From Vampirovibrio chlorellavorus (GTDB taxonomy: Bacteria; Cyanobacteriota; Vampirovibrionia; Vampirovibrionales; Vampirovibrionaceae), in assembly GCF_003149375.1 (NCBI RefSeq), contig NZ_QFWH01000005.1:78004-142003 (forward strand): a stretch of DNA of 64,000 bases, written 5' to 3'. Below the pieces are notes generated by a model, which saw only the letters and a program-made list of their open reading frames with translations, did no database searches and had not been told where the DNA came from. A program made the translations under genes and the position numbers. This document shows positions 1,958-8,532 of this stretch, one piece after another; positions within the stretch are counted from its first letter, which is position 1; each line of letters starts with the position of its first letter.

Positions 1958-2020
1958 GGAAAGTACTTTCGTTGGTGGGCCTTGAGTCGCCCCGGGTAAA
2001 AGTGGTGTTTCTAATAATAA

Positions 2021-2048
2021 AAGAAAAAGAGGCAAATAGATTTGCCTC
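2021..2048 (-). terminator. Intrinsic terminator after the lexA/mini-gene transcript
   Basis: GAGGCAAAT (2029-2037) and ATTTGCCTC (2040-2048) form a 9-bp perfect stem. On the minus strand it is followed by TTTTTCTT. It lies after the 27-codon ORF and before the rlmN start, so transcripts from lexA or the mini-gene would end here. Confidence 0.7.
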
Positions 2049-2155
2049 GGTGAGATTTGTGGGATAAAGAGTGGAGTGTGTACAGATAGAGTTAGAAGTG
2101 TTTAAAAAATAAAGTTCCCTGTTTAGGGGTAGGACATATCTGGAAAGCGGGGGCT

Positions 2156-2239
2156 CTAGGCGTTGCCCGGAATGAAAAAGTAGGGCCAGACCAGCAAAGC
2201 GCCGTAAAAAACATCACGTAACAAGCGACGGATACTCAT
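2156..2239 (-). CDS. Mini-gene for a 27-residue hydrophobic peptide
   Basis: ATG 2239 is preceded by a textbook AAGGAG with a 9-base spacer. The frame reads MSIRRLLRDVF, then YGALLVWPYFFIPGNA, and stops with TAG. The peptide has a basic amphipathic N-terminus and a C-terminal stretch rich in Leu, Val, Trp, Tyr and Phe, so it could insert in a membrane. It sits between lexA (ends 2359) and an intrinsic terminator (2021-2048). That makes a complete small transcription unit or the tail of a lexA transcript. The function is unknown. Small hydrophobic SOS-linked peptides such as TisB are a formal analogy only; no homology is claimed. Confidence 0.6.
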   Translation of the reverse strand: MSIRRLLRDVFYGALLVWPYFFIPGNA

Positions 2240-2358
2240 AGGGATAAGCTCCTTGTTCTTTCAGTTGGGTTGTCTAATCAATTCGCTATTAACTAATGGC
2301 TCACTGAAGGAACAGTGACCATAAACATCGTTTCTGAAGCTGGTTTATGCGACAGGGG

Positions 2359-3123: not shown

Positions 3124-3206
3124 TCGAACGCTTTTTCTATCGAACGTAAATTCTATGATACTCTTCCTTGGCAAAAAGGCAAGCGATAATTCGAAAAAAA
3201 ATTCGA
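3124..3206 (-). promoter_or_regulatory. Candidate LexA operators upstream of lexA
   Basis: Two TCGAACG heptamers lie at 3124-3130 and 3140-3146. The second continues into CGAAC-GTAA-ATTC, one base from the Gram-positive-type CGAAC-N4-GTTCG box. Further up, ATTCGA occurs twice in direct orientation (3189-3194 and 3201-3206), separated by an A-run. The position 80-165 bases before the lexA start suits an autoregulatory region. The same intergenic stretch (3043-3510, 468 bases) also holds the leader of the plus-strand PFOR operon. There TACAAT at 3319-3324 with TTGAAA 15 bases upstream is a weak promoter candidate. Confidence 0.4.
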
Positions 3207-7918: not shown

Positions 7919-7992
7919 TAGGCAGCCTCGCCCGATTTTTTCAGTTTCATCTTTTTCATCTTTTTTCTATTACACCTTTTGCTCAGGATATG

Positions 7993-8021
7993 AAAAAACC
8001 CCTCAGCAAAGCCAGGAGGGG
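7993..8021 (-). terminator. Strong intrinsic terminator on the minus strand
   Basis: Read on the minus strand, CCCCTC (8021-8016) pairs with GAGGGG (8004-7999) around an 11-base loop and is followed at once by six T. It ends either the RNA described at 8030-8208 or read-through from the HTH-usp operon, whose last stop is 510 bases upstream. Confidence 0.75.
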
Positions 8022-8029
8022 CTAGGAAT

Positions 8030-8208
8030 GATGTACTGTGACCACGCTAAGATCTGCTGGCCATTCTCTTAGTTTCAAAGAAAATGGCGCATGAAGCTAA
8101 AGGGTTTAATCAAACGCTGTCCTTTTCCACGGCTAAATAACCATTTCAAACGTAAAATCCGGGGTCATGAAAAAAGTCTTGACCTTGGTCGGTCACAGAC
8201 TTTGAACA
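8030..8208 (-). ncRNA. Candidate structured RNA, 6S-like
   Basis: On the minus strand CTGTGACC (8198-8191) pairs perfectly with GGTCACAG (8043-8036), closing a domain of about 163 bases. Next inside, CCAAGGTC (8188-8181) pairs with GATCTTAG (8054-8047) with one mismatch. Toward the tip, AAATGG/CCATTT, AAAGG/CCTTT and GTTT/AAAC stack around a GATT loop. The long rod with unpaired flanks, the size near 180 bases and the terminator 14 bases past the closing stem all resemble 6S RNA. A TACAAT -10 lies at 8220-8215, but no good -35 is seen. The pairing is read by eye; identity as 6S RNA is inference and other regulatory RNAs are possible. Confidence 0.42.
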
Positions 8209-8532
8209 CTGCTTATTGTATGCAAAATGGCCGGTAATCATACCTAACCAGTTGGGTAGTTTCTGGGTGTGTTTCTGGTGGCAAGGGACACTTGCCACGC
8301 CGATTATTTTGGTGTGCGTCCATCATGACGGTTTTGAATGCGACGGTTTTGCATGCGGATGAATGGGCCCCTGTCTGGGGGGAGGCGTTTGGTCAGCCAG
8401 GGTGTCCGGCTTGATCCTGTTGGATCAAAATTGGCTCAAAAGAGGGCTTAAGCCGTTGGCTCCAAGATTATCCGTTTGACGGACGGGTTGTTCGGAGGGT
8501 CTTGTGTACGCTTTGTGGACAATGTCGGTGCT
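8209..8532. other. Intergenic stretch with repeats and palindromes
   Basis: No gene seen. It holds a hairpin GTGGCAAG-ggaca-CTTGCCAC (8278-8298) and a tandem 15-bp direct repeat with one mismatch (8327-8341 and 8342-8356). It also holds a perfect TTGATCC-tgtt-GGATCAA inverted repeat (8411-8428) and a GGCTTAAGCC palindrome near 8445. It forms the 3' flank of the usp gene. Confidence 0.5.
8327..8356. repeat. 15-bp imperfect tandem repeat
   Basis: GACGGTTTTGAATGC and GACGGTTTTGCATGC lie head-to-tail with one mismatch, in the noncoding region downstream of usp. Confidence 0.85.

Follow-up and report, generated by a model that had tools for sequence, protein, structure and literature searches.

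What, if anything, is encoded by the short open reading frame (ORF) behind lexA in Vampirovibrio chlorellavorus? In the 64,000-nucleotide stretch of DNA that was analysed (the window), the minus strand carries, in order, lexA (3042-2359), a gap of 119 nt from the lexA stop to the short ORF, the ORF itself (2239-2156), a 3' UTR, a terminator (2048-2029) and rlmN (1957-851). The lexA product, of 227 amino acids, contains the Pfam LexA DNA-binding domain (PF01726) and the S24 peptidase domain (PF00717), and shares 95% identity with LexA from a Vampirovibrio sp. MAG and 91% with its V. chlorellavorus NCIMB 11383 counterpart; rlmN, the next gene past the terminator, is matched by PF04055 and PF21016. 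Translation of positions 2156-2239 gives the peptide MSIRRLLRDVFYGALLVWPYFFIPGNA, closed by a TAG stop codon, with a basic N-terminus and a hydrophobic C-terminal stretch that includes P19 and P24. The Shine-Dalgarno sequence AAGGAG (2249-2254, minus strand) is positioned 9 nt from the peptide ATG. The original prediction, a 27-residue ORF with AAGGAG, ATG and stop behind lexA, was therefore confirmed at 2156-2239 on the minus strand. It had also placed an intrinsic terminator immediately downstream: the terminator scan does identify a stem of eight pairs (2029-2048, minus strand) followed by TTTTTCTTTT, and "immediately" is slightly generous for a stem lying ~107 nt 3' of the peptide stop.

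ORFs of this size often arise by chance, and this one is very short. The locus was compared across five genomes of the genus, i.e., the window genome, L031, L032, L033 and L034. All five have the ORF in the same frame, with the same length (27 codons), start, place behind lexA and Shine-Dalgarno sequence; the lexA-peptide gap ranges from 72 to 239 nt, and the ORF itself is without indel. The peptides of the window, L031 and L032 (the latter being V. chlorellavorus NCIMB 11383) are identical, and the other two are MRIRALIRDFLVGGLLVLPYLFLPTHA and MRIQTFLRDLLVGSLLLFPYLFIPSHV. Every ORF substitution among those first three genomes is synonymous (2, 3 and 5 in the pairwise comparisons), and comparison of these three close genomes with the two diverged ones gives pS of 0.64-0.87 and pN of 0.29-0.31. 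When alignment columns were shuffled, none of 20,000 shuffles matched the protein similarity across the three lineages (observed 225; shuffle maximum 184), and each of the other five reading frames is interrupted by stops. As judged from these comparisons, purifying selection is acting on the peptide ORF, at the level of amino acids rather than codons. Conservation of the frame in related species had been named beforehand as a refuting test, and its outcome favours a gene. A chance ORF is refuted for practical purposes by the conservation in 5/5 genomes, the exclusively synonymous changes and the shuffles, and we assign it a negligible probability; the ORF is almost certainly a true, conserved gene below annotation size. 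A profile built from the genus peptides retrieved one lexA-linked copy in each of the five genomes and no convincing further copy in these or in 13 other genomes of the order, the remaining matches having E values of at least 0.03 and the best match away from lexA (E 0.035) having a stop inside. Searches with the 27-mers gave no matching model in Pfam or NCBIfam, and the family is absent from both.

Two further elements lie in the gap between lexA and the peptide gene. A leader block, AGCGAATTGATTA (AGCGAATTGRTTA), is found 5' of the Shine-Dalgarno sequence at 2275-2287 (minus strand); AGCGAATTGRTTA is kept in all five genus genomes, and the remainder of the gap diverges. A small hairpin at 2298-2320 (minus strand) has the arms CACTG/CAGTG in the window and CGCTG/CAGCG in L031 and L032, and is absent from L033 and L034.

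How would such a gene be transcribed? In each of the five genus genomes, two copies of the pattern AGAAN6TTCGA precede lexA and one precedes recA. A matrix built on those boxes identified a third box before lexA, CGAATTTTTTTTCG, in all five, and boxes before lexA in L035-L039 too. On the minus strand of the window, predicted SOS box 1 (CGAATTTTTTTTCG, 3192-3205) is 5' of a putative -35 element and is identical in all five genus genomes, box 2 (AGAATTTACGTTCG, 3141-3154) abuts the putative -10 element, and box 3 is AGAAAAAGCGTTCG (3125-3138); boxes are present at the latter two positions in 5/5 genomes. The putative lexA promoter, TTGCCT-16-TATCAT (3155-3182, minus strand), is assigned by consensus match only. 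The predicted box spacing agrees with the Gram-positive type, CGAACN4GTTCG. Across genome G000 the exact pattern shows no enrichment over its backward control (8 occurrences versus 13), and four other matches inspected there look like chance; one of the inspected matches is located before what is presumably a flgK-like ORF and another inside a presumed rpoB-like ORF. For these reasons the argument for SOS boxes depends on those located before lexA and recA.

Scanning the region 3' of the lexA stop at ten loci with the same matrix, no SOS box scored above 7.2 bits, whereas the training boxes scored 13.8-17.4 bits. A candidate for a LexA box of the peptide's own, the weak AGAAACGATGTTTG in L032 (7.2 bits), was rejected as far under the real boxes. 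A consensus scan of the lexA-peptide gap of the window detected no sigma-70-like promoter, and no terminator was found between lexA and the peptide, the T-runs in the gap being short. Since none of these three signals (strong box, consensus promoter, terminator) interrupts the gap, the peptide gene is most simply explained as being read through from lexA, and it would then belong to the lexA transcription unit. Given also the conserved boxes before lexA and recA, we infer that lexA and the peptide gene are likely carried on one transcript that is raised by DNA damage and so coupled to the SOS response. By the same box and promoter scans, the peptide lacks the LexA-controlled promoter of its own that would mark a type I toxin. 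In L036 there are six T just 3' of the lexA stop. At 1958, close to where rlmN starts, a site resembling a box scores 13.1 bits; it is absent from L031 and L032 and is thus taken as chance.

We further analyzed the distribution of the gene in a set of 18 genomes of the order. LexA searches gave matches in 13 of these, and 11 were counted as lexA-bearing, the weak partial matches in G005 and G008 being left out of the count. Among the six lexA-bearing genomes outside the genus, a short ORF occupies the same slot in four (L035, L036, L037 and L038) and is missing in L039 and L024; L039 has a terminator-like hairpin and T-run within ~95 nt of the lexA stop. The four ORFs start with ATG, have a purine-rich ribosome-binding sequence and are 57, 37, 23 and 23 codons long, with the C-termini LLLVLPHVV, LLLVLPHLF, LVLLCPFVFG and LVLLCPFLLGL, respectively, a hydrophobic-proline pattern like that of the genus peptides. 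This C-terminal pattern, which was composed after the peptides had been seen, matches seven of 209 distinct short ORFs preceded by a Shine-Dalgarno sequence, and all seven are those downstream of lexA. The genus profile misses L035-L038, so that position and pattern are the grounds for treating these four as homologous, and for the same reason the profile cannot demonstrate absence outside the genus. On position and pattern, the peptide family probably extends beyond the genus. Across the class, at 16 lexA-type loci outside the order, no Shine-Dalgarno-preceded ATG ORF with the peptide pattern was found in the 400 nt behind lexA; the 39-residue ORFs of L018 and L021, also outside the order, sit among other small membrane ORFs. 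Viral contigs were considered as carriers and rejected (11 pattern matches, none confirmed), as were weak Pfam matches of the L037 peptide to DUF7860 (E 0.0034) and Tom5 (E 0.14) and of the L035 peptide to GAPES4 (E 0.077), all below curated cut-offs. Separately, a convincing LexA is missing in 7 of the 18 Vampirovibrionales genomes (G005, G006, G008, G011, G013, G015 and G017), of which five have no match and two a weak partial match, some of the assemblies being incomplete; given this, the order may include lineages in which the SOS repressor was lost or another took its place.

Conservation is also seen in the RNA that follows the ORF. A 29-nt block of the 3' UTR, ACTCCACTCTTTATCCCACAAATCTCACC (2049-2077, minus strand), has 0-1 mismatch in all five genus genomes, with one copy per genome, and over the 71-nt region of block plus terminator identity reaches 97% in G003 and 94% in G001, while G007 has a recognisable version (E 8e-9). 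When three control terminators of the window were sought in G003 and G001, two gave nothing convincing and the third proved to be partly kept (94% across 35 nt; 79% across 59 nt). The 3' UTR and terminator (2019-2077, minus strand) are thus conserved more strongly than the three control terminators, which are a better control than the recA alignment, a rough one only, with row L097 misplaced. The window's 26 other listed terminator-like sites contain no copy of the block, no Rfam family matches it above threshold, and Pfam Hfq is found in none of the 18 order genomes. Pairing between the block and the peptide leader was rejected, being no better than shuffled, and no promoter for rlmN or for the opposite strand was seen inside the block, where both were sought by eye only. 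Possible roles of the conserved block include a small RNA and a part in controlling rlmN. Two observations concern other terminator-like sites: at the family f2 loci L037, L038 and L039 the lexA 3' ends have ACACTCCAA in common before a hairpin and T-run, and at 7988-8260 (minus strand) of the window there are two terminator-like hairpins, with T-runs from 8175 and 7998 and the sequence TTTTGCATACAAT upstream. Parts of this latter region are kept in G003 and G001, and Rfam gives no match to it; it is possible that it encodes a small RNA.

What might the peptide do? Each of the seven distinct peptides has one hydrophobic stretch of ~15 residues near the C-terminus, short for a full span, with a proline near the end of the stretch and a neutral or positive N-side. 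These properties suggest an N-in, C-terminal membrane anchor. The original prediction stands in its view of a gene below annotation limits behind lexA, which proves to be conserved, and its "membrane-active", toxin-like sense is just one of several readings. In the E. coli lexA-dinF operon, a membrane protein gene is co-transcribed with lexA, as would be the case here; unlike the present peptide, DinF is large, crosses the membrane several times and resembles a transporter. More similar in size are several small proteins, which we compared by description. SidA of Caulobacter crescentus, of 29 residues, is SOS-induced, resides in the inner membrane and blocks division at FtsW (PMC4211646). The Vampirovibrio peptide resembles it in size class, in its single hydrophobic segment and in LexA control, which is predicted here, and differs in being encoded by what would be the second cistron of lexA itself. 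The lexA-adjacent division inhibitors SosA, YneA and ChiZ have a single transmembrane segment and diverged sequences, and recur in Gram-positives (PMC6851548); the lexA linkage, the single (here predicted) transmembrane segment and the fast-diverging sequence are common features. SosA, however, has 77 residues, of which the C-terminal part is extracellular, and its gene and lexA are divergently transcribed (PMC6851548), whereas the order's peptides have 23-57 residues, would lack an extracellular part and are encoded co-directionally behind lexA. DinQ of E. coli, which also has 27 residues, is a single-transmembrane SOS peptide with a depolarising effect on the membrane, and its gene is paired with an antisense RNA (PMC3567139). 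Our peptide is hydrophobic and, by inference, SOS-linked, like DinQ and TisB; these differ from it in having an antisense RNA and in lying away from lexA, while at the present locus neither an antisense promoter nor a LexA box of its own was found. In Staphylococcus aureus, sbrB encodes the 38-residue SbpB behind lexA on the opposite strand from a SigB promoter (PMC8745188). It, too, is a small protein gene on the lexA 3' side, but SbpB has marked lysines where the Vampirovibrio peptide has a hydrophobic tail.

We tentatively favour an SOS-coupled membrane micropeptide that would restrain cell division in the manner of SidA or SosA, to which we give somewhat less than an even chance. By this model, lexA and the peptide gene would form an autoregulated operon with the peptide gene as second cistron, and LexA would repress its own promoter via the three boxes. 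After DNA damage, RecA would trigger the self-cleavage of LexA, and the lexA-peptide mRNA, ending at the terminator behind the peptide gene, would rise. The peptide would then insert into the membrane as a short, single, N-in helix with its C-terminus stopping at the outer face, and might bind a late division-machinery membrane protein of the FtsW/FtsI class, its proposed target, so that septation would be delayed until LexA builds up again. Members of the FtsW/RodA family are present in 15 of the 18 order genomes, including 12/12 of those of good quality, and V. chlorellavorus divides by binary fission, with FtsZ (PMC4451040). These two points, the features of the peptide and the SidA and SosA/YneA/ChiZ precedents lead us to place a checkpoint peptide first; a different membrane modulator comes next, then a depolarising peptide, an RNA effect and, last, a leader for rlmN. 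Against a role in division, the tie to lexA would mean that undamaged cells produce the peptide too, at the basal level of LexA, in contrast to SosA with its divergent placement, 2 of the 11 lexA-bearing order genomes (L039 and L024) are without the ORF, and the hydrophobic stretch has only ~15 residues.

Many micropeptides of bacteria serve membrane enzymes as accessory subunits, and the peptide could be a small, SOS-linked membrane protein with a modulating effect on a target outside division, such as a membrane protease, a transporter, a respiratory enzyme, or LexA/RecA turnover. The genetic evidence for such a modulator is identical to that for the division reading, and basal co-production with LexA fits it better than an inhibitor. 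We nevertheless regard it as rather unlikely, because no candidate partner emerged (the neighbour examined, rlmN, is kept behind the peptide in family f1) and because lexA is repeatedly paired with division inhibitors in other bacteria, which speaks for a checkpoint. A membrane-depolarising dormancy peptide of the TisB or DinQ type would agree in size and layout, DinQ having the same number of residues (PMC3567139). However, no antitoxin ORF is apparent at the locus, the gene is without a LexA box of its own, and the plus strand of 2019-2360 shows no sigma-70-like site, although a consensus scan cannot exclude one. The prolines in and at the end of a short helix suit a toxin poorly, and basal co-production with LexA argues somewhat against a strong toxin, so that we consider a depolarising peptide improbable.

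Two readings shift the emphasis from the peptide to the RNA. Selection might mainly keep the 3' UTR block and terminator, released as a small RNA, with the peptide secondary. The near-invariance of the 29-nt block in 5/5 genomes, and of the 71-nt region relative to the less conserved control terminators, is as expected of such an RNA, but the ORF has its own coding signature, and the missing Hfq, the lack of an Rfam match above threshold and leader pairing no better than shuffled make this very doubtful. Alternatively, translation of the ORF as a leader peptide could control the terminator before rlmN by attenuation. The lexA-ORF-rlmN order is kept in 7/7 lexA-bearing family f1 genomes and the sequence directly before the terminator is strongly conserved, yet the conservation of the ORF is at the amino-acid and not the codon level, and in all five folds the terminator stem forms with the preceding block unpaired. 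Furthermore, the f2 ORFs of L037 and L038 have no rlmN within the 1.6 and 3.0 kb downstream examined, so that, provided these ORFs are homologous, the association with rlmN is not constant. Attenuation is therefore the least probable of the functional readings.

In the open-licence literature searched, we found no description of a lexA-downstream peptide in Vampirovibrio, and nothing on LexA and the SOS response in Melainabacteria or on a small membrane ORF in a lexA operon. Vampirovibrio and lexA come up together there in work on DNA phosphorothioation, and small proteins downstream of lexA in the work on S. aureus sbrB. The favoured checkpoint reading can be extended, as a long shot, to a three-part damage module of LexA, a membrane peptide dosed by LexA resynthesis, and an Hfq-independent regulatory RNA from the 3' UTR; if this were true, the checkpoint would release itself as LexA returns. 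A checkpoint peptide would mean that a non-photosynthetic sister lineage of cyanobacteria owns an SOS micropeptide made in step with LexA, and that a new bacterial branch joins those in which lexA has recurrently been paired with membrane checkpoint peptides that are not homologous to each other. The hosts are predatory non-photosynthetic cyanobacteria, for which this is a one-gene and easily tested hypothesis, and the locus illustrates that the 3' side of lexA can harbour conserved genes under annotation limits.
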